A DNA stretch of 64,000 nt. Origin: Chryseobacterium sp. 3008163 (GTDB taxonomy: Bacteria; Bacteroidota; Bacteroidia; Flavobacteriales; Weeksellaceae). This document shows, in pieces, positions 4,211 to 57,998 of the stretch (positions within the stretch are counted from its first letter, which is position 1; the number at the start of each line of letters is the position of its first letter). The notes beneath the pieces were generated by a model that was given only the letters and a program-made list of their open reading frames with translations, searched no databases and was not told the origin of the DNA. The stretch lies in the NCBI RefSeq assembly GCF_003669035.1, contig NZ_CP033070.1:1178001-1242000 (forward strand), in the 5' to 3' direction. The position numbers and the translations under genes are program-made.

Positions 4211-5386
4211 ATGAAAAATATTATCTCCGGATTATTTATTTTTATCACCATATTTGGTTTTGCTCAGGACGAAATTCAGTTTCAGGATCTTCCTTTTAAA
4301 GATCTTGTAGCAAAAGCTAAGGAGGAAAATAAACTTGTCTTTATCGACGCATATGCTGCTTGGTGTGGCCCTTGTAAGATGATGGAAAAGAATGTTTTCA
4401 ACAAAAAATCTGTAGGCGATTTTTATAATAAAAACTTCGTCAATGCAAGAATTGACATGGAAAAAGGTGAAGGAAGAGAGGTTGCTCAAAAATTTGGCGT
4501 TCGCTCCTATCCTACTTATTTATTTTTAAACGGTGACGGCGAATTGGTTTCACAAAACTATGGGTACATGGAAGAAGGCATTTTCTTAGCAATGGCTCAG
4601 GATATCAATTCTCCAAACAATAAAAAAGGTTCGCTGAAAGAACGTTTTGCAAAAGGTGAAAAAGACAAAGATTTTCTCATCAACATTATGAAGTTGAATT
4701 CGAGTGCTGACTACGAATTTGCAAAACAAGCTTCTGAAAGATACTTCTCCAACAGAAAAAAAACAGACGAGTTTACCAAAGACGATGTTGGTCTTCTTTT
4801 ATATTTCTTAAAATCAACAGAAGATCTCAACTACAAAACATTTGTTTCTCAAAAAGCAGACATCATCAAATTTTTACCTGAAGAAAACTATAAAGAATTT
4901 AATAATCAATTGGTTTTAGCCAAAGTAGTACAAGAATCGATTGACGAAAAAGCAAAGAAAATCAATGACGATTATTTTTTAAAAACTGCTGAACCCTTAG
5001 TTGGGAAAGAGGCAGCAATTTTAAAATTAAATCAAACAAAATTAGCATATTATGAACAAAATGCCAATTTCTTGGAATACGAAAAAGCAGCGTTAGAATA
5101 TTATAAAAACGCAGATTCTTTTGAACCAAACGAACTTTTAAAGGCAGCCTGGATTTTCTCAGACAATATCAAAACACAATCTTCGTTAAAGAAAGCAGCA
5201 GAATGGGCTGAGAAATCGGTCATGCGTGGTGAAACTCCAGAAAACACCTATATTTTAGCAAAAATATATTACAATTTAGGAAGCAAAGACTTAGCAAAAA
5301 ACTTCGCTGAATTATCAAAAAACATGGCTTTGCAATCTGGAAAAGACGCCAATTTAGCGACAGAGTTATTAAGTAAAATCAAATAA
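4211..5386 (+). CDS. Secreted thioredoxin-family protein
   Basis: Exported thioredoxin-fold protein of about 391 aa. A signal peptide (to about residue 18, FGFAQ) is followed by a thioredoxin domain at about 20-135 with the redox-active motif WCGPCKMM and the cis-Pro region RSYPTYLF. The remaining 250 residues are helical and charged, resembling the TPR-like tails of similar Bacteroidota proteins. The likely role is disulfide handling in the periplasm; substrates are unknown. A TTG two codons earlier (4205) is an alternative start. It is followed after 9 bp by a small barrel gene, suggesting co-transcription. Confidence 0.85.
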   Translation: MKNIISGLFIFITIFGFAQDEIQFQDLPFKDLVAKAKEENKLVFIDAYAAWCGPCKMMEKNVFNKKSVGDFYNKNFVNARIDMEKGEGREVAQKFGVRSYPTYLFLNGDGELVSQNYGYMEEGIFLAMAQDINSPNNKKGSLKERFAKGEKDKDFLINIMKLNSSADYEFAKQASERYFSNRKKTDEFTKDDVGLLLYFLKSTEDLNYKTFVSQKADIIKFLPEENYKEFNNQLVLAKVVQESIDEKAKKINDDYFLKTAEPLVGKEAAILKLNQTKLAYYEQNANFLEYEKAALEYYKNADSFEPNELLKAAWIFSDNIKTQSSLKKAAEWAEKSVMRGETPENTYILAKIYYNLGSKDLAKNFAELSKNMALQSGKDANLATELLSKIK

Positions 5387-6280: not shown

Positions 6281-7476
6281 TATTCTTCATAAATCAGATA
6301 TTTACTTCTGATTTTTGAGAATTTTTCAAGATCAGCTTTCCATGAAGCTTTGATTTCAGATTCAGATTTTCCGGCAATGATTTGTTTTCTTAATTCATCG
6401 CTTCCTGCCAATGTATCGAAAAACAGATTCTTCAAAAAGAAATCTTGTTGAGGATTTTTATAATTTTGATATGCTTTGAGCAGCCATTCTAAATTCAGAC
6501 TTCTCAAATCCTGAGAATAATTTGAAAGATTTTCTCCGTAACACAATTTCCCGTTTAAAAATGGATCTTTTGCTCCGAAATTCGGTTTTGGAGTAAATTG
6601 ATAAGGTAAATTTTTCGTCCATGGCGAACCATAGATTTGAAAAGGACTACCTGTTCCCCTCCCCACAGAAACCTGAGTTCCTTCAAAGAAACATAAACTC
6701 GGATAGAGATTAATCGACTTCTCATTGGGTAAATTAGGAGAAGGTTTATCTAAAATTGCATAACGCTGTTTTTTATGATACTTCTGCATCGGGATTAATG
6801 TATACTTCGCTTTTACTCCATTCTTCAGCCATTTTTCTCCGTTCACCATTTTTCCGTATTCACCAATTGTTAAACCGTAAACGACAGGAACTTCATGCAT
6901 TCCGACAAAACTTTCCCATTTCTTTTTTAAAACCGGTCCGTCAATATATCCGTCATGAGGATTTGGTCTGTCTAAAACTAAAATTTCGACATTATTTTCT
7001 GCACCGGCTTCCATTAAATAGGTTAAAGTTGAGATGTAAGTATAAAATCGAACTCCAACGTCCTGAATATCAAACAAAACAATATCTAAACCTTTTAGTT
7101 GCTCTGGTTTTGGCTTTTTATTAGCTCCGTAAAGTGAAATAATAGGAATTCCAGTTTTTACATCTATTCCATTCTTTACTTTTTCCCCTGCATCTGCATC
7201 ACCTCTGAAACCATGCTCTGGAGCAAAAATTGTTTTAATTTTAATTCCGTTTTTAACCAGATAATCTACAACATGAGTTTTGTCTTTCATCAAACCGGTT
7301 TGGTTGGTCACAATTCCGATGGTTTTGTCTTTCAATAAGGGCAAATAAAGTTCCGGTCGGTCTGCACCGGTTTTGAAACATTCCTGATCTTGAGACTGAG
7401 AATAATATGGGTTGATTACTCCTAAAAAAATTAGGCAAATAAGAACTAAAGTTTTAATTTTGAAATCTAAATTCAT
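6280..7476 (-). CDS. DUF1343 protein, NamZ-type exo-beta-N-acetylmuramidase (GH171)
   Basis: Secreted hydrolase of 398 aa, related to NamZ of Tannerella forsythia, which releases N-acetylmuramic acid from the end of peptidoglycan fragments. A signal peptide covers residues 1-26 (LVLICLIFLGVINPYYS). Conserved blocks are IGIVTNQTGL, FAPEHGFRGDADAG, GLDIVLFDIQDVGVRFYTY, LDRPNPHDG and EGTQVSVGRGTGSPFQ. The frame stays open to 7698, but the ATG at 7474-7476 directly precedes the signal peptide and is the real start. The substrate is inferred from the family. It faces an ABC permease whose start lies only 4 bp away. Confidence 0.88.
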   Translation of the reverse strand: MNLDFKIKTLVLICLIFLGVINPYYSQSQDQECFKTGADRPELYLPLLKDKTIGIVTNQTGLMKDKTHVVDYLVKNGIKIKTIFAPEHGFRGDADAGEKVKNGIDVKTGIPIISLYGANKKPKPEQLKGLDIVLFDIQDVGVRFYTYISTLTYLMEAGAENNVEILVLDRPNPHDGYIDGPVLKKKWESFVGMHEVPVVYGLTIGEYGKMVNGEKWLKNGVKAKYTLIPMQKYHKKQRYAILDKPSPNLPNEKSINLYPSLCFFEGTQVSVGRGTGSPFQIYGSPWTKNLPYQFTPKPNFGAKDPFLNGKLCYGENLSNYSQDLRSLNLEWLLKAYQNYKNPQQDFFLKNLFFDTLAGSDELRKQIIAGKSESEIKASWKADLEKFSKIRSKYLIYEE

Positions 7477-46909: not shown

Positions 46910-49405
46910 TTATTCGACTTTCCAATCAATTTTTTCATCGGTTTGGTTCCAATCAACGGTAAGGATTTGCCCGGATTTCACTTCTTCCCGTACAATCATT
47001 TTTGAGATTGGTCTTGCCAACTGAGCTCTGATCACTCCAGAAATCTGTCTTGCTCCGTATTTGCTGCTGAATCCGCCTAATGCTAAATTCTTCACAGCTT
47101 CATCGGTGATAGAAAGCGTCATTCCTAATCTGTGAAGCGATTTGTGAAGCGATTTTAACTGAATATTAAAAATTCTTTCTGCAATAGATTCTGTAATTGG
47201 CGCAAAAGGAATAATTTCTGTAATTCTCGCTAAAAATTCTGGTCTGAATCTCCCTGAATTTGACATAATCTGCATCAAAGAAGACGATTCCGGAACTTTT
47301 CCTTCCTCGAATTGTTTTACAATTTCTTCGCTTCCGATATTTGAAGTAAATAAAATTAAAGCGTTACTGAAATCTCCTTCTTTTCCTAATTTGTCATGTA
47401 CTTTTCCTTCATCCATGATTTGTAAAAAGACGTCGAAAACAGAATGATGTGCTTTTTCAATTTCATCAAATAAAACTACGGTATAAGGCTGCTGACGGAT
47501 TTTATTGACCAACATACCACCTTCTTCATAACCAACATATCCGGGAGGTGCACCATATAATAATGCTGCTGAGTGCTCTTCTTTAAATTCTGACATATCA
47601 AAACGAACCATCGCTTTTTCATCATTGAAAAGCAGTTCTGCCATAGATTTTGCCAACTCAGTTTTCCCCGTTCCAGTTGGTCCCAAAAGGAAAAATGATC
47701 CGATTGGTTGTCCGGGTTTGTTTAACCCACTTCGGTTTTCAACGATAGCATCAGAAAGTACTTTCAATGCATGATCCTGACCAACAACTCTGCTTAGTAA
47801 AAGAGATTCCATATTCAGAAGCTTCTCTTTTTCCTGAGCCTGAAGTTTCCCAATCGGAATATTCGTTTTTGCTGCCATTACAGCTGCCAACTCAAGTTTG
47901 CCGACTTTTTCTCTTTTTGTAGAAGCGTGTTCTATCAATTCTGTAAAAGTATCTGCAATGACTTTCTGAAGATGCTCGATCGGCATTGAGTTATCAATTT
48001 GCGGCTGTTCTCTCAAAGATCCCCACAAAATCGGACTTATTTTATCTCTCAGTAAATTGTAATTCCAGATTAATTCGTCGGCTTTATCTTTTTCATCCAA
48101 AAATTCTTCTGTCAGAATATTTTCATAATTTTCTTTCCAGTCTTGGAGTTCTTTTTCTGAAAGTTCATCCAACATTTTGATAGCAGCCATTGTTCGGTCA
48201 AGCAGGTCAATTGCAGCATCCGGCAATTTTTTACCTTTTGCATATCTTTTTGCCAGACGTACACATTCGGGAAGTGCAGATTTATCAACTTCGATACCGT
48301 GGTGCTTTTTATAACCATCCAGAAGAACATCAATCATTTTCACACAAGTTTGTTCATCCGGTTCATTAACTGTAAGAACTTCGAAACGTCTGTTAAAAGC
48401 CTGTTCCGGCTCAATTATTTTCCTATATTCTTCTTGAGTTGTCGCACCGATAACAGTAATTTCACCTCTTGCCAATTCAGGTTTAAGAATATTTCCAATA
48501 TTTCCGATGCTGCCTTTTGGATCTAAAAGTGAGTGAATTTCATCAATAAAAAGAATGGCTTTTTCAATCTTCTTGCACTCGTTGATTACTTTTTTCAGGC
48601 GGTCTTCAATTTCACCTTTGTAAGAAGTTCCTGCCAATAATGCTCCCGTGTCTAATTCTAGCAAAGTAGCATTTTTAAGCATTTCTGGAACATTCCCTTT
48701 GATGATTTCTGTCGCGAAACCCTCTACCAAAGCGGTTTTACCAACACCAGGCTCTCCAATAATGATAACGTTAGGCTTTGTTCTTCTACAAAGAATTTCG
48801 ACCAGCATTCTCAGTTCTTTATCACGGCCGATAATATTTTCTAAAGTTCCTTGTCTTGCCTGTGCAGTTCTGTCTATACAATAACTTTTAATCGAGGGGA
48901 AAGAATTGTCTGAATAGTCATTTCCATTAGAAAAAAGTGAAGAAATTTCACTGTTTTCAGATGAAGCGTAAGGCGTATCTTTTCTGTACAAATTGAATAT
49001 TTCGTGCTCCCTAAGAGGCAAAGATTTAAGTTGTTGTAATGTGAAAGCAACCTGCGGTTTTACAATTGCAGTCAGAATACAAATCGGAGTGATCTCATCT
49101 AAGCCTAATTTTAACCTGATATCATCGGCCTCTTCAAGAATCTGGTCTACAAATTCGCCCTCACCTACCTCAGCAGGAAGATGTGTGGTTTTTGGATAAT
49201 CTTCGATTCGGACGTCTGCCCATTCGTAGAAATATCCGGGATCTTTATCGATGTTTTTTAAGAATTCATTAAGTCCGATATCTTTATGCATTAAAGCCTG
49301 AAGAATGTGTGGACCGCCGTATGTCGCATTGTAATTCTCTCTTGCAATGGACTGGGCAATGTGAAAAAGTTGTTTTACTGTTTCGTTGGTAACTAATACT
49401 CCCAT
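46910..49405 (-). CDS. ClpA/ClpB/ClpV-type AAA+ ATPase (candidate TssH)
   Basis: 831-aa Hsp100 unfoldase. N-terminal double-repeat domain 1-150; AAA module 1 with Walker A GEPGVGKTALVEG and Walker B LFIDEIHSL; a middle helical region of about 110 residues; AAA module 2 with Walker A GPTGTGKTELAKS and Walker B VVLFDEIEKAH, and the C-terminal D2-small domain. No zinc domain (not ClpC/X) and no obvious ClpP-binding loop. It is more diverged than housekeeping ClpB and is close to TssH/ClpV of Bacteroidota type VI secretion by general layout. No other tss gene is in the window, so this remains a suggestion. Confidence 0.75.
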   Translation of the reverse strand: MGVLVTNETVKQLFHIAQSIARENYNATYGGPHILQALMHKDIGLNEFLKNIDKDPGYFYEWADVRIEDYPKTTHLPAEVGEGEFVDQILEEADDIRLKLGLDEITPICILTAIVKPQVAFTLQQLKSLPLREHEIFNLYRKDTPYASSENSEISSLFSNGNDYSDNSFPSIKSYCIDRTAQARQGTLENIIGRDKELRMLVEILCRRTKPNVIIIGEPGVGKTALVEGFATEIIKGNVPEMLKNATLLELDTGALLAGTSYKGEIEDRLKKVINECKKIEKAILFIDEIHSLLDPKGSIGNIGNILKPELARGEITVIGATTQEEYRKIIEPEQAFNRRFEVLTVNEPDEQTCVKMIDVLLDGYKKHHGIEVDKSALPECVRLAKRYAKGKKLPDAAIDLLDRTMAAIKMLDELSEKELQDWKENYENILTEEFLDEKDKADELIWNYNLLRDKISPILWGSLREQPQIDNSMPIEHLQKVIADTFTELIEHASTKREKVGKLELAAVMAAKTNIPIGKLQAQEKEKLLNMESLLLSRVVGQDHALKVLSDAIVENRSGLNKPGQPIGSFFLLGPTGTGKTELAKSMAELLFNDEKAMVRFDMSEFKEEHSAALLYGAPPGYVGYEEGGMLVNKIRQQPYTVVLFDEIEKAHHSVFDVFLQIMDEGKVHDKLGKEGDFSNALILFTSNIGSEEIVKQFEEGKVPESSSLMQIMSNSGRFRPEFLARITEIIPFAPITESIAERIFNIQLKSLHKSLHRLGMTLSITDEAVKNLALGGFSSKYGARQISGVIRAQLARPISKMIVREEVKSGQILTVDWNQTDEKIDWKVE

Positions 49406-52167: not shown

Positions 52168-52198
52168 TTGCCTCTTATGAATTAAAAACTTAAATTTG
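52168..52198 (+). promoter_or_regulatory. Promoter of the cobalamin operon
   Basis: TTG at 52168-52170 and TAAATTTG at 52191-52198, spaced 20 bp, a good Bacteroidota promoter. Transcription would start just before the riboswitch. The 180 bp between the cdd stop and here show nothing but AT-rich DNA with a stretch reading CAGATTACGCAAATTTGCAC. Confidence 0.6.
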
Positions 52199-52203
52199 CA
52201 CTG

Positions 52204-52307
52204 ATTTAAAAAAGGGAATTCGGTGAAAATCCGAAGCAGACCCGCTACTGTAAGTGATGTTTGATTATATTAAGAAAACATACACAAGTCAGACACCTTT
52301 TTAAATT
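52204..52307 (+). promoter_or_regulatory. Cobalamin riboswitch
   Basis: The conserved core is clear: GGTGAAAATCCGAAGC, then ACCCGCTACTGTAAGTGA, then AAGTCAGACACC. The outer stem P1 is formed by ATTTAAAAAAGG at the start and CCTTTTTAAAT at the end. It switches off the downstream genes when B12 is plentiful. The B12-box region (AGTCAGACACC) is in its short Bacteroidota-like form. Confidence 0.92.
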
Positions 52308-52354
52308 TATTACATAGATGAAGCTTTCGTGGAGTGAGGCGTAGTCGGTTTAAA

Positions 52355-52428
52355 AACCTATTTGTATCAAACAATAATAGGTTAATTCCTTCTATTCATT
52401 ACATTCACAAAGCCATCATTAAGGCTTT
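52355..52428 (+). promoter_or_regulatory. Leader hairpins between riboswitch and start codon (possible expression platform)
   Basis: Two inverted repeats lie in the 130-nt leader: AACCTATT (52355-52362) with AATAGGTT (52376-52383), and AAAGCC (52409-52414) with GGCTTT (52423-52428). The second ends 11 nt before the ATG and could mask the ribosome entry site, so control may be translational. No T-run follows, which argues against a terminator. Confidence 0.45.
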
Positions 52429-52439
52429 ATTAGAATTGA

Positions 52440-54464
52440 ATGAATAAATATTTTTACTCTGCTTCGCTGCTGTTTTTGTTGGCTACACCTGTTTCTCTTT
52501 TTTCGCAAGAAAAAGAAAGTGACAGCATTCGTACTGAAACAATAAGGGCTCTTATCCTCAATATGAAGCGTCAGGAAACCGGTGTTATTTCTTCACAAAA
52601 ACTTTCCGGTGCCGAGCTTGAAAAACTGAACAGTACTTCTGTAGCAGATGCTGTGAGGTATTTTTCCGGAGTCCAGCTGAAAGATTATGGCGGAATTGGT
52701 GGTATGAAAACCGTAAATATCCGGGCGATGGGAACGCAACACGTTGGTGTTTTCTATGACGGAATTGCCCTTGGAAATGCACAAAACGGAACGGTAGATT
52801 TAGGCAGATTTTCTTTAGATAATTTAGAATCAATCTCATTGTACAACGGTCAAAAGAGCGAAATTTTTCAGTCCGCGAAAGACTTTGGTTCTTCAGGATC
52901 TATTTATTTGAAAAGCAGAACTCCGGTTTTTAAAGATTCTAAAAAAACCAATGTGAATCTTCACTTCCGCTCGGGATCTTTTGGAATAATTAACCCATCA
53001 GTATTGCTTGAACAAAAACTTAATGACAATATAAGCGTTGCCTTAAGCACAGAATATCTTACTGCAAATGGCGAATATAAATTTCATCAGAGAGTTGCTT
53101 TACCCGATGGAAGCCTCGGTTGGGAACGCCAAGGTACAAGAACGAATGGTGATGTGGAAGCTCTAAGAGCTGAAGCAGGAGTTTTCGGTAAAATCAATAA
53201 CGGAACTTGGAAACTGAAAACCTATTATTACGATTCTGAAAGAGGAGTTCCTGGCGCCGTGACAAAATACAATGATATTTTCTCGAGCCGACAATGGGAT
53301 AAAAATTTCTTTGTACAGGGAAGTTTTGAAAAAGAAATTTCTCCTAAATATAAATTTCTCATTAGTTCAAAATTTGCTGATGACTACACTCATTATTACA
53401 ATGATAACCCAGGCGGAACGCCACTTTTCATCGATAATACATACAAACAGCAGGAGGTTTATATATCAACCGCACACCAATATTCTCCTTATAAATTTTG
53501 GAAAATCAATTTATCTGTAGATTATCAATTTAATACTTTGGATGCCAATTTAAGACAGTTTGCCTATCCCGAAAGAAATACAGAGCTTGTGGCACTGGCA
53601 ACTCAGCTTGATTTTAAAAAATTTAAAATACAAGGAAGCATTTTAGGAACTTTTGTGCAGGAAAAAATAGAAAACACCCTATTTTCAACACCTCAAAACC
53701 GTTCTGAATTTACGCCTACGGTATTCGCTTCTTATCAGCCGTTTTCCGCAGAATTTAAAGTTCACGGTTTTTATAAAAGGATTTTCAGGATGCCTACCTT
53801 CAATGATTTGTATTACACGGAAGTCGGAAGTTCGCAACTGAAACCTGAATTTACCAATCAGTACGATCTAGGATTTACATTTAACAAAGATTTTAATACT
53901 GGCGTTTTAAAAAACATCAACCTGATTGCTGATGCTTATTACAATCGTGTTCAGAACAAAATTATAGCTTATCCAAAAGGGCAACTATTCCGTTGGACGA
54001 TGGAGAATTTGGGTGAAGTGGAAATAAAAGGCGTAGATCTTTCGGCACAGGCAATCTGGTTGCTTTCAGAAAATTTATTATTGAGCAACCGTTTTACTTA
54101 TACTTTTACAGAAGCTTTAAATATTACCAAAACCAATATTACTTCTTACTACAGGCATCAGATTCCGTATACTGCAAAGAATAATGCAAGTGCCCTGCTC
54201 GGGCTTACCTACAAAGACTGGCAACTGAATTACAGTTTCGTCTACGTTGGCGAAAGGTACAATATGTCTGAAAATATTCCTGTAAACTATGAACAGCCTT
54301 GGTACACGAGCGATATTTCGGGAACGAAAGAATTTAAAATGAATGACTGGAAATTCAGATTAGGCTTGGAAGTGAATAATCTTTTGGATCAGAATTACAG
54401 CGTTATCAAAAATTACCCAATGCCGGGACGAAATTACAGAGTCAGCCTGAGAGTAACCTTTTAA
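52440..54464 (+). CDS. BtuB-like TonB-dependent receptor
   Basis: 674-aa outer-membrane receptor, first gene of a riboswitch-controlled operon, so very likely a corrinoid importer. Signal peptide to about 23 (TPVSLFSQ). The plug domain has SAVADAVRYFSGVQLKDYGG-like TSVADAVRYFSGVQLKDYG, MKTVNIRAMGTQHVGVFYDGI and SLDNLESISLYNGQ. The barrel ends NYRVSLRVTF with the terminal Phe. The short plug without an N-terminal carboxypeptidase-like domain fits BtuB. Two surface proteins following it resemble BtuG. Confidence 0.88.
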   Translation: MNKYFYSASLLFLLATPVSLFSQEKESDSIRTETIRALILNMKRQETGVISSQKLSGAELEKLNSTSVADAVRYFSGVQLKDYGGIGGMKTVNIRAMGTQHVGVFYDGIALGNAQNGTVDLGRFSLDNLESISLYNGQKSEIFQSAKDFGSSGSIYLKSRTPVFKDSKKTNVNLHFRSGSFGIINPSVLLEQKLNDNISVALSTEYLTANGEYKFHQRVALPDGSLGWERQGTRTNGDVEALRAEAGVFGKINNGTWKLKTYYYDSERGVPGAVTKYNDIFSSRQWDKNFFVQGSFEKEISPKYKFLISSKFADDYTHYYNDNPGGTPLFIDNTYKQQEVYISTAHQYSPYKFWKINLSVDYQFNTLDANLRQFAYPERNTELVALATQLDFKKFKIQGSILGTFVQEKIENTLFSTPQNRSEFTPTVFASYQPFSAEFKVHGFYKRIFRMPTFNDLYYTEVGSSQLKPEFTNQYDLGFTFNKDFNTGVLKNINLIADAYYNRVQNKIIAYPKGQLFRWTMENLGEVEIKGVDLSAQAIWLLSENLLLSNRFTYTFTEALNITKTNITSYYRHQIPYTAKNNASALLGLTYKDWQLNYSFVYVGERYNMSENIPVNYEQPWYTSDISGTKEFKMNDWKFRLGLEVNNLLDQNYSVIKNYPMPGRNYRVSLRVTF

Positions 54465-54476
54465 TGAGATTTAGAC

Positions 54477-55601
54477 ATGAAAAAAATATATTTATTCTTA
54501 GTTTTCTTTTTGATTCTTACAGCTCAGTCTTGTAGAGAAGATTATGATTACATTAATTATGGTGCAGTCTATACGGGAGTTCAGGAGCCGGAAGACATCA
54601 ACATCAAAGGTCTTTATGTACTTAATGAGGGCAATATGGGAAGCAACAAAGCTTCTATAGATTTTTTTGATTATTCTACCGGAGTTTTTACCGAAAATTA
54701 TTACAATGCTCAAAATCCTACAGTAGTTAACAGTCTGGGAGATGTAGGAAACGATATTAAAACGTATAAAGATAAATTGTACGCTGTCATCAATCTTTCA
54801 AATTATATTGAAGTGATGGATGCCAAAACAGCAAAACATATTGGAGAAATCCAGATTCAAAACTGCAGGTACATTAATTTTCATAAAGATTACGCTTACA
54901 TTACGTCTTACGGTGGTGCCGTTGGAGCATCACAGCCCGGATATGTGGTAAAAGTAGACGTCAATACCCTGCAAATTGTCGGTAAGCTCTATGTTGGAAA
55001 ACAACCCGACGAACTAGAAGTTGTAGGAGATAAATTATATGTTACGAATTCTGGTGCATACAGTGGTCCTGATTATGACAATACTGTTTCTGTCATTGAT
55101 CTGAATACTTTTACCGAGATTAAAAAAATACCTGTTGCCATCAATTTAAGTAAAATTAAAAAAGATGACACGGGAAAGCTTTGGATAACCTCGCGTGGAA
55201 ACTTCGGTAACATTCCTCCAAAAACGTATGTTTTAAATCCTCAGACTGATCAGGTTATCAAAGAATTTAATATTCCTGTAAGTAATTTTTCAATTGTTGA
55301 AAACAGACTGTACTATATCAGTTATGAATGGACTTCTGGAGGCGCAACCAGCAGTTACGGAATCATTAATACTGACACGCTAGAAAAAACAAGCAATAAT
55401 TTTATAACAGACGGAACAGACACCAAAATTGTCATTCCATACGGCATTGCTGCAAACCCTGTCAATGGTGACATTTTTATTTCAGACGCTAAAGATTACA
55501 CTTCTTCCGGCGAGCTTTTCTGCTACAACAAATTCGGAAAATTAAAATGGAAAGTCAAGACGGGAGACATTCCGGGACATTTAACTTTTTTATATAAATA
55601 A
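54477..55601 (+). CDS. BtuG-like beta-propeller lipoprotein (DUF5074/YncE-like)
   Basis: 374-aa lipoprotein with lipobox LTAQSCRED. The body has the YncE-type blades: IKGLYVLNEGNMGSNKA, NYIEVMDAKTAKHIGEI, VVKVDVNTLQIVGKLYVGKQPDELEVVGDKLYVTNSG, NTVSVIDLNTFTEIKKIPV. In Bacteroides, BtuG is a propeller of this type that captures B12 at the surface and docks on BtuB; position 12 bp behind a BtuB-like gene under a cobalamin riboswitch supports the same job here. Function is inferred. Confidence 0.82.
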   Translation: MKKIYLFLVFFLILTAQSCREDYDYINYGAVYTGVQEPEDINIKGLYVLNEGNMGSNKASIDFFDYSTGVFTENYYNAQNPTVVNSLGDVGNDIKTYKDKLYAVINLSNYIEVMDAKTAKHIGEIQIQNCRYINFHKDYAYITSYGGAVGASQPGYVVKVDVNTLQIVGKLYVGKQPDELEVVGDKLYVTNSGAYSGPDYDNTVSVIDLNTFTEIKKIPVAINLSKIKKDDTGKLWITSRGNFGNIPPKTYVLNPQTDQVIKEFNIPVSNFSIVENRLYYISYEWTSGGATSSYGIINTDTLEKTSNNFITDGTDTKIVIPYGIAANPVNGDIFISDAKDYTSSGELFCYNKFGKLKWKVKTGDIPGHLTFLYK

Positions 55602-55624
55602 TTCAATTAAAATAATTCAAAAAA

Positions 55625-56911
55625 ATGAAACATTTTTACTCTAATTTTTTAAAGCTAAGTTTTGCATTGGCAGGCTTTGTATTGACATCTGCACAGTATT
55701 CTAATGGGTATATTGTATCCAATGAAGGGAACTTTGGTTCTCCAACAGCGGAAATTTCTTACATTGATGCCAACAATAATATCACAAATAATATTTACCA
55801 TCTTGCCAACAATAATGAAGCTTTGGGAGACGTTTTGCAATCTATGTATTTTAATGGAGATAAATCTTATTTAGTATTAAATGCGTCCAACAAAGTAGTA
55901 GTAACAAACAGAGCAAGTTTTGTAAAATCAGGAGAAATTACCAATCTTGAATTTCCAAGATATACAACAGTTGCCAACGGAAAAATTTTCACTACCAATT
56001 GGGGTGATTATAACGCTGTTTCACAATATGTTTCAGTACATGATGCAGCCACTTTAGCCTTTATTACAAATATTCCTTTAAGTGAAAATCCAGAGGAGAT
56101 TATTACCGTGAACGGAAAAGTATATGTGAATAAATCTTCTTACAGAGCAGGAAATAGTATTGATGTAATTAATCCTACTACCAATACAATTATCAGCACC
56201 ATTACTTTAAGTGCTGGATTGCAGTCTATCACGGTAGTTGGAAATGATATTTTTGCATTATGTACAGGAGCTACAGGATCTACAGTATATAAAATCAATA
56301 CGACCACAGATACAGTATCAGCAAATATTGCAAATTCTACAATTGTACCACCATCACAATATGATGCTTTGAAATTTTCATCAGAAGGAAACACTCTGTA
56401 CATTGCAGGAGCAACTAGTGTTTATTCATTAAATACAAATTTAGCAACATTCAGTAGTACTCCTCTTTTTACGACAACAGCAAGTGGCAACGGCGGTGAC
56501 TTCTATGGTTTTGCTGCTATTGATGGAAAAATTTTCCAAGGTAACTCATATTTTGTGAATCCTACATCTACTGTAAATGTTTATAATCAAACAGGAACTA
56601 TTTTAAATACCTTTACAACAACTGTTGGAGCTAATAATTTCTATAAAAACGTATTCACTCCTGCAAGTCTTTCAACAGCAGAAACAAAACTAAACAACAC
56701 CATTTCAATCTATCCAAATCCTGTATCAGACATCCTTTATATCAAAAATGCGAATGGTTCACAATATAAAATCATTGATCTTTCAGGAAGAATTGTAAAA
56801 TCTGGCGTTTACCAAAACGGAATTACAGTTTCAGACTTGAACAAAGGAAATTATATTATTCAGATTTCAGGTAAGAATGTTCAGCAAACTGAGAAATTCA
56901 TCATCAAGTAA
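55625..56911 (+). CDS. BtuG-like beta-propeller with T9SS sorting domain
   Basis: 428-aa exported protein and evident paralogue of the preceding lipoprotein: NGYIVSNEGNFGSPTAEISYID matches GLYVLNEGNMGSNKASIDFFD, and NSIDVINPTTNTIISTITL repeats the blade motif. Instead of a lipobox it has an ordinary signal peptide (LTSAQYSNG) and a C-terminal type A sorting domain (ISIYPNPVSDILYI, GNYIIQISG, TEKFIIK). It would therefore leave through the type IX system and be surface-attached or released. Probably a second corrinoid-binding protein. Confidence 0.82.
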   Translation: MKHFYSNFLKLSFALAGFVLTSAQYSNGYIVSNEGNFGSPTAEISYIDANNNITNNIYHLANNNEALGDVLQSMYFNGDKSYLVLNASNKVVVTNRASFVKSGEITNLEFPRYTTVANGKIFTTNWGDYNAVSQYVSVHDAATLAFITNIPLSENPEEIITVNGKVYVNKSSYRAGNSIDVINPTTNTIISTITLSAGLQSITVVGNDIFALCTGATGSTVYKINTTTDTVSANIANSTIVPPSQYDALKFSSEGNTLYIAGATSVYSLNTNLATFSSTPLFTTTASGNGGDFYGFAAIDGKIFQGNSYFVNPTSTVNVYNQTGTILNTFTTTVGANNFYKNVFTPASLSTAETKLNNTISIYPNPVSDILYIKNANGSQYKIIDLSGRIVKSGVYQNGITVSDLNKGNYIIQISGKNVQQTEKFIIK

Positions 56912-56934
56912 TTTGATATAAAATTTAAATAAAA

Positions 56935-57942
56935 ATGAAAAATATATTCATCGCTGCTGCATTTCTTTCTGCTAACTTTCTAATGGCTCAAAGTTATGCT
57001 CCACAAGCCGGCGTTGCGGGTTCTACTGCAATTCCTGCCAACAGTAATCTTTTTAAATCTTGGGCAACAGGTGCTACTGTTCTACGTGGTTACCAGCAAA
57101 TCAACACCGCAGTATCTGCAGTTGCTAATGCTGGTGTTGATGCTAATGCAATTGGGCCTTCTAACGGATCTATTGTAAGTCTGGGAGACGGAGGTAATGC
57201 TATACTTACTTTTGCAAAACCAATCACCAACGGAAGCGGTTTTGACTTTGCCGTATTTGAAAACGGATTTATGTCTGGCCAGTCTGGCAGAGCATTTTTA
57301 GAATTGGCTTTTGTAGAAGTGAGTTCAGATGGTGTTAATTTCTTCCGTTTCCCTTCTCATAATCAATATCCTGCAAATTTCGTTCAGAATACTACGGATA
57401 TGGGAGGTCCAGGTTTTGCAACAATGGATGCCACATATCTTAATAATTTTGCAGGAAAATACACCTCTGGCTTCGGAACTCCTTTCGACATCAGCGATCT
57501 TCCGGATAACCCGCTTTTAGATAAAACAAAGATTACTCATGTCAAAATAATTGATGTTATAGGCACAAACATTGACACCTACAGAACATACGACAGCTTC
57601 GGAAATGTTGCGATAGACCCTTTCCCAACTCCTGGTGGTTCTTCAGGATTTGATCTGGATGCTGTGGGTGTGATTAATGAATTTATTGTATTATCAACTG
57701 CAGAAAATCAGAAGGCAGAAACCAAAATTAGTCTTTACCCGAATCCTGCTAAAGATTTCATTAAAATCAATACAGACAAAGATGTTGAAGTAAAAATCTA
57801 CAGTGCAAACGGAGCTCTTGTAAAACAAGGGAAAACCGTTAATAAGACATTGAATGTTTCAGATTTATTGAATGGAAATTACATCATTCAAATTGATAAC
57901 AATTCCAATAAACAAAATCTTAAGTTGATTATCTCAAAATAA
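56935..57942 (+). CDS. T9SS-sorted cell-surface protein of the cobalamin operon
   Basis: 335-aa exported protein. Signal peptide to about 18 (ANFLMAQ). The central domain, about 20-255, is rich in strands (GDGGNAILTFAKPITNGSGFDFAVFENGF, FLELAFVEVSSDGVNFFRFP, THVKIIDVIGTN, GGSSGFDLDAVGVIN) and ends in a likely metal or ligand site. The last 75 residues are a type A sorting domain (ISLYPNPAKDFIKI, GNYIIQID). The domain is familiar from surface proteins encoded beside B12 loci in Bacteroidetes, but its ligand is not established. It is the last gene of the operon. Confidence 0.75.
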   Translation: MKNIFIAAAFLSANFLMAQSYAPQAGVAGSTAIPANSNLFKSWATGATVLRGYQQINTAVSAVANAGVDANAIGPSNGSIVSLGDGGNAILTFAKPITNGSGFDFAVFENGFMSGQSGRAFLELAFVEVSSDGVNFFRFPSHNQYPANFVQNTTDMGGPGFATMDATYLNNFAGKYTSGFGTPFDISDLPDNPLLDKTKITHVKIIDVIGTNIDTYRTYDSFGNVAIDPFPTPGGSSGFDLDAVGVINEFIVLSTAENQKAETKISLYPNPAKDFIKINTDKDVEVKIYSANGALVKQGKTVNKTLNVSDLLNGNYIIQIDNNSNKQNLKLIISK

Positions 57943-57960
57943 GATGAGTTTAAAATAGTA

Positions 57961-57998
57961 AGAACCTCTTTCAAGATTATTTGAAAGAGGTTTTTTAT
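57961..57998 (+). terminator. Terminator of the cobalamin operon
   Basis: Perfect arms AACCTCTTTCAA and TTGAAAGAGGTT around a 6-nt loop, then T4 and AT-rich DNA. Confidence 0.85.

Follow-up and report, generated by a model that had tools for sequence, protein, structure and literature searches.

We identified a cobalamin riboswitch operon at positions 52168-57998 of a 64,000-nucleotide stretch of the Chryseobacterium sp. 3008163 genome (contig NZ_CP033070.1; this whole stretch is hereafter called the window). The operon encodes a BtuB1-like receptor, a BtuG1-like lipoprotein, and two proteins with sorting tails of the type IX secretion system (T9SS), and it is probably a two-tier scavenger of vitamin B12. 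The unit is co-directional on the + strand and comprises a promoter-like site, the riboswitch, four genes with 12, 23, and 23 bases between them, and a strong terminator. The gene order, the riboswitch with its covarying stem, the T9SS tails, and the families of the receptor and both propellers are established at the level of sequence. The features are as follows.

52168..52198, + strand: promoter-like site TTG-N20-TAAATTTG, present in 11 of 12 aligned rows, window row included
52204..52306, + strand: cobalamin riboswitch aptamer (RF00174; Rfam match 52168-52318), with covariation of the closing helix
52317..52348, + strand: conserved leader segment of 32 bases between the aptamer and the first gene (alignment of 12 rows)
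52440..54464, + strand: protein 1, TonB-dependent receptor, BtuB1-like (PF00593, PF07715; BtuB1 8blw_A, E 1.2e-143)
54477..55601, + strand: protein 2, BtuG1-like propeller lipoprotein (DUF5074; BtuG1 8ptf, E 2.6e-44; Cys19)
55625..56911, + strand: protein 3, BtuG-like propeller (residues 26-348) and type A T9SS sorting domain (362-428)
56935..57942, + strand: protein 4, predicted BtuH-like domain (residues 20-254) and type A T9SS sorting domain (267-333)
57960..57995, + strand: terminator hairpin of 16 pairs, followed by a T-rich tail

The riboswitch match scored 56.3 bits, above the gathering threshold of 31.5, and included the conserved stems. Covariation was assessed in 10 sequences over 16 pairs, covering the closing helix (52204-52306) and the hairpin that follows it. 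Paired cells made up 96.2% of the total for both elements and 94.4% for the closing helix alone, in which one pair was broken in three of the ten sequences. Changes on both sides were found in 10/16 pairs, none of 500 shuffles was as high, and pairing fell to 61-66% when the partner was slid by one column. The leader (52203-52440) also folded better than its own shuffles (z -2.77), and the leader segment at 52317-52348 was more conserved among relatives than the sequence flanking it. The motif TTG-N20-TAAATTTG, which we take to be the Bacteroidota promoter consensus, ends at 52198, so transcription would start approximately at the closing helix. This motif coincides with the first ~35 bases of the RF00174 match, and because of that overlap the 5' end of the match was not taken as aptamer. 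As a lone motif it is weak, with 8 occurrences on the + strand of the window versus 5.6 expected from 20 single-base shuffles. Expression of the operon is predicted to be repressed when B12 is plentiful.

The best solved relative of protein 1 was BtuB1 of Bacteroides thetaiotaomicron, and all 10 distinct solved sequences at E <= 1e-5 were B12 receptors by name or by complex. The score of protein 1 against the NCBIfam equivalog TIGR01779 was below the cut-off (98.5 of 599.7 bits), and the protein is therefore called BtuB1-like. Protein 2 combines a DUF5074 propeller, a lipobox (Cys19 after AQS, by eye), and a gene adjoining that of a BtuB-type receptor, as expected of a BtuG. Proteins 1 and 2 correspond to the pair BtuB1-BtuG1 of solved structure (PDB 8blw; PMC10404256; papers are cited here and below for passages of their text). 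Transfer of this pair from Bacteroidales is not claimed because other Weeksellaceae carry the same BtuB1-BtuG1 types. The original prediction had named a promoter, a riboswitch, a BtuB-like receptor, a propeller lipoprotein, and a terminator; these were borne out by RF00174, Pfam, relatives in the PDB, and the 16-pair hairpin, with the reservation on the lone promoter motif given above.

Protein 3 is a second DUF5074 beta-propeller, and its nearest solved relative was BtuG. Its sorting domain scored above the curated cut-offs of PF18962 (Por_Secre_tail, 45.9 bits) and TIGR04183 (45.5 bits). By eye, no Cys followed the signal-like start, a T9SS tail being present instead of a lipobox, and the protein is therefore termed BtuG-like rather than BtuG. 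The paralogous propeller with a type A T9SS domain, as originally predicted, was accordingly confirmed: DUF5074 and Por_Secre_tail were both above cut-off, and proteins 2 and 3 are homologous, with 31% identity over 158 residues. A recent tandem duplication was ruled out by this identity and by the separate clades of the two proteins in trees. In protein 3, two of the five named pocket positions of BtuG2 are aromatic (Trp194 and Tyr316 correspond to Tyr173 and Tyr294), and Glu34 and Glu157 are conserved in its propeller family.

Protein 4 likewise carries a sorting domain above curated cut-offs (PF18962, 50.6 bits; TIGR04183, 44.3 bits), as expected of the further T9SS-sorted protein that had been proposed. 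No Pfam family matched outside this domain, and among NCBIfam models the remainder matched only the LIC_13355 lipoprotein model, far below cut-off (28 of 120 bits). The link to BtuH comes from the predicted structure and from hhalign rather than from a PDB profile search. The model of protein 4 has the predicted fold of a BtuH domain, with BtuH2 ranked first by VIA-align, and local hhalign alignments to BtuH gave E values of 9.7e-6 and 1.2e-5 over 58 columns. Foldseek alone placed beta-glucuronidases first, with TM-scores near 0.2, and a BtuG1 chain seventh. The BtuH2 contacts Asn399 and Phe401 have conserved counterparts in protein 4, and an Asn is invariant in 148/148 rows of the protein 4 alignment. 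No lipobox was seen by eye and a T9SS tail is present, so the protein is called BtuH-like. Assignment of protein 4 as a divergent DUF4465 protein was rejected, as Pfam gave no DUF4465 match; DUF4465 structures were absent among the best 50 VIA-align entries, which excludes nothing.

Export of proteins 3 and 4 by T9SS is predicted from their tails, and the window genome has a T9SS (SprA_N match, E 1.8e-153, in a search that covered SprA). The B12-binding domain was matched three times in the same genome. The open frames concerned have 711, 894, and 1121 residues and by eye resemble methylmalonyl-CoA mutase, methionine synthase, and a fusion of the mutase type. The bacterium therefore likely uses B12. 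No DUF4465 match was found in this genome. A second cobalamin riboswitch (117.1 bits) lies outside the window at L137 5280-5460 (C1:1113279-1113459; L numbers denote loci), and is followed, at L137 5575-5958, by a gene whose product is a small thioesterase of the hot-dog type (similar to YciA, below cut-off), an unusual target. Within the window, a cytidine deaminase gene lies upstream of the operon and a convergent gene that by eye resembles tRNA nucleotidyltransferase lies downstream. A large ClpB/ClpV-like AAA+ ATPase gene, seen as an open reading frame at 46910-49405 on the - strand, may mark the border of a further cluster.

Full-length protein 4 was found in 18/296 genomes of the family, in a scan that scored seven candidates per genome and whose other listed matches were to the T9SS tail, and in 25/296 genomes of the order at E <= 1e-25; together these are 40 different genomes. 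A cobalamin riboswitch was located on the same strand 1.2-4.6 kb upstream of protein 4 in 36 of the 40, and the four genes for which none was seen sit on contigs of 3.5-5.0 kb. A receptor together with a DUF5074 neighbor was present at 34/40 loci. Five of the remaining six are contigs of <5 kb, and the sixth, L127, has a receptor and no DUF5074 match in 17 kb. By hidden Markov model (HMM), protein 4 had a T9SS tail in 35/40 genomes (18/18 in the family and 17/22 in the others). A T9SS-tailed BtuG-like protein occurred in 14 of the 18 family genomes with protein 4; in 13 of these its neighbor is a BtuG lipoprotein, and in L052 it is a fragment located where the contig ends. At L113, L116, L119, L120, L121, L124, L129, and L131, a T9SS-tailed protein with a repeated 'W-G-G-SDS...SYAWGY' domain that has no Pfam name is interposed between the riboswitch and protein 4. 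A similar stretch, by eye, opens long DUF5074-T9SS proteins (e.g., the N-terminal part of L185 4814-7135), and the domain may be a further B12-related one.

DUF5074 itself was present in 212/296 family genomes at E <= 1e-5. The best-scoring 30 of these proteins (open frames of 755-813 residues), which are the top of a ranked list and not a random sample, had a T9SS tail by HMM in 30/30 and a riboswitch 5.2-5.4 kb upstream in 30/30. Around long DUF5074-T9SS genes, 12 loci were chosen, and 10 of them had the order receptor, BtuG lipoprotein, BtuH lipoprotein, and T9SS-tailed DUF5074 protein; within these ten, the receptor of L188 is broken, L191 has two further genes, and the tail in L192 is just below the Pfam cut-off. 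In L189 and L195, a lipoprotein replaces the T9SS-tailed DUF5074 protein. One BtuH lipoprotein of the chosen loci matched 8blw (E 1e-69) and 7biz (E 1.9e-42). DUF4465 was found in 13/296 order genomes, nine of which were protein 4 genomes, and the DUF4465 proteins from protein 4 genomes that were checked with Pfam had a T9SS tail (3/3). L196 and L197 hold riboswitch-led BtuH and DUF4465 lipoproteins without a T9SS tail, and L198 and L199, short contigs with DUF4465, showed neither a riboswitch nor B12 genes. The T9SS tail is thus frequent, not universal, in related B12 operons. At L191, an AdoCbl-II riboswitch (RF01689, 38.4 bits; 6715-6808) precedes the DUF5074-T9SS gene, and a weak RF00174 match (33.9 bits; 4689-4829) precedes a gene resembling metE.

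In a propeller tree of 90 rows, protein 2 grouped with BtuG1-type rows and protein 3 with flavobacterial lipoproteins that occupy the position of the lid in other operons. When long DUF5074 proteins were added in a 59-row tree, T9SS-tailed rows fell in three separate clades, and the starred branches force four anchor changes, gains and losses together. In a receptor tree of 44 rows, which left out the receptors of L184-L195, the group of the window joined the receptors of L132 and L133, from another family of the class. From these trees together, we infer that the operon has the appearance of a BtuB1-BtuG1 core to which two parts were added, an older lid redirected to T9SS and a BtuH bearing a T9SS tail.

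When B12 is scarce, the riboswitch would permit expression of the operon, and the BtuG lipoprotein (protein 2) would lid the receptor. Proteins 3 and 4 would leave via T9SS, bind corrinoids on the cell surface or outside it, and pass these on to BtuG-BtuB. Of the second tier with a T9SS-exported propeller in the original prediction, the BtuG family and the T9SS tail are supported by sequence; that proteins 3 and 4 bind corrinoids and hand them over to BtuG, whether surface-held or released, is what we infer. Several observations weigh against such a two-tier scavenger. The sequence link between protein 4 and BtuH is limited to 58 columns, and a plain PDB profile search with protein 4 did not find BtuH, returning T9SS tails and chance matches only. 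No counterpart of the BtuH2 contacts His476, Tyr510, Trp511, Trp577, and Leu578 could be placed in protein 4, and the position of BtuH2 Gln333 is Val in the window protein and Gln in 68/148 rows. Protein 3 has Val311 for BtuG2 Tyr335 and Asp247 for Trp272, and BtuG2 Tyr239 falls in a loop that is missing from it. Protein 4 homologues without an HMM tail number 5/40 (L118, L127, L128, L130, and L117, the last cut by a contig end), and some related B12 operons have no T9SS tail at all (L189, L195, L196, and L197).

A tentative extension, which we rate somewhat below an even chance, is that flavobacterial T9SS-tailed B12-binding proteins are freely released as 'corrinophores' that would grab corrinoids and return them to the lidded importer. 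T9SS tails fitted to three unrelated B12-binding folds (BtuG, BtuH, and BtuJ/DUF4465) in operons presumably repressed by B12 could possibly be read in this way. If true, these proteins would correspond, for B12, to hemophores and siderophores and would achieve without vesicles the kind of capture for which Bacteroides uses them.

Alternatively, the T9SS tail could be another anchor that ties the proteins to surface lipopolysaccharide, where they would act in place, none of them free, in the manner of the lipoprotein BtuH and the extra BtuG of Bacteroides; this is a real possibility, if one that we would not bet on. Many type A T9SS substrates are anchored, and BtuH, DUF4465, or DUF5074 lipoproteins fill the corresponding place in L184-L187, L189, and L195-L197, so that lipid anchor and T9SS tail look interchangeable. 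However, most of the Weeksellaceae operons examined keep BtuG and BtuH lipoproteins and add a T9SS-tailed protein, and the window operon retains its BtuG lipoprotein; the tail therefore seems to provide an additional location, not a replacement anchor. It is unlikely that proteins 3 and 4 keep their folds and bind something else or nothing, in which case they might open the BtuG lid, bind a host or algal B12 carrier, or serve as adhesins. In both proteins, several of the known contact residues are absent or could not be placed, and BtuK2 does not bind cobalamin although BtuK1 does, nor does BtuL (PMC12751083), but the near-constant riboswitch linkage of protein 4 (36/40), its invariant Asn, and the conserved Glu34 and Glu157 of the propeller family argue against this reading. 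That the exported BtuG-like protein is a decoy shielding BtuB from phages or bacteriocins is very improbable: BtuB of E. coli is a receptor for toxin entry (PMC3050690), but the same tails occur on BtuH-like and DUF4465 proteins, which are not known as receptor lids, and nutrient supply fits riboswitch control.

Published descriptions of BtuG, BtuH, BtuJ, and BtuK are of lipoproteins, some of them vesicle-borne (PMC8941943, PMC10404256, PMC12751083, PMC13398666). In the larger DUF4465 cluster, about 40% of members have PF16819 proteins nearby, and a DUF4465 protein of Fluviicola taffensis binds B12 (PMC13398666); the terms T9SS, type IX, and sorting are absent from the main text of that paper. 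In Flavobacterium psychrophilum, a cobalamin riboswitch is reported to precede a receptor, and the passage cited names no exported binder (PMC9723704). No earlier description of a T9SS-routed corrinoid binder was found in the titles, abstract starts, and passages of the papers listed by searches of the open-licence PMC literature. Organisms compete for B12 in soil, water, and hosts, and the corrinoid catchers described for Bacteroidota in these passages are lipoproteins of gut Bacteroides, partly on vesicles. If corrinoids are caught by way of T9SS, vitamin capture would join the tasks of this secretion system. A role would then suggest itself for a flavobacterial protein family that has no name and for many DUF5074 proteins with T9SS tails, and models from outside the gut would become available for protein-based corrinoid scavenging. 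Related operons recur across Flavobacteriales.

The HBP35-type haem binders of Porphyromonas are also exported by T9SS and bind a tetrapyrrole-type nutrient; their fold and ligand differ from those of the window proteins, and they are not known to have a riboswitch operon. The BtuB1-BtuG1(H) complex of B. thetaiotaomicron (8blw, PMC10404256), like the window operon, joins a receptor and a BtuG propeller in a B12 locus. In its BtuG1, the H domain is fused to the lipoprotein, whereas in the window the BtuH-like domain and the second propeller are separate T9SS-tailed proteins. BtuH2 (BT_1956, PDB 7biz, PMC8941943), the closest fold to protein 4, is encoded beside btuB and is a predicted lipoprotein with N-terminal PKD domains; in contrast, protein 4 is T9SS-tailed and has neither a lipobox nor a PKD part. 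The B12 binders of BtuJ (DUF4465) vesicle-borne capture (PMC12751083, PMC13398666) are placed outside the cell and return B12 to it, as is proposed for proteins 3 and 4. However, they are lipoproteins on B. thetaiotaomicron vesicles, whereas the route in the window would be T9SS.
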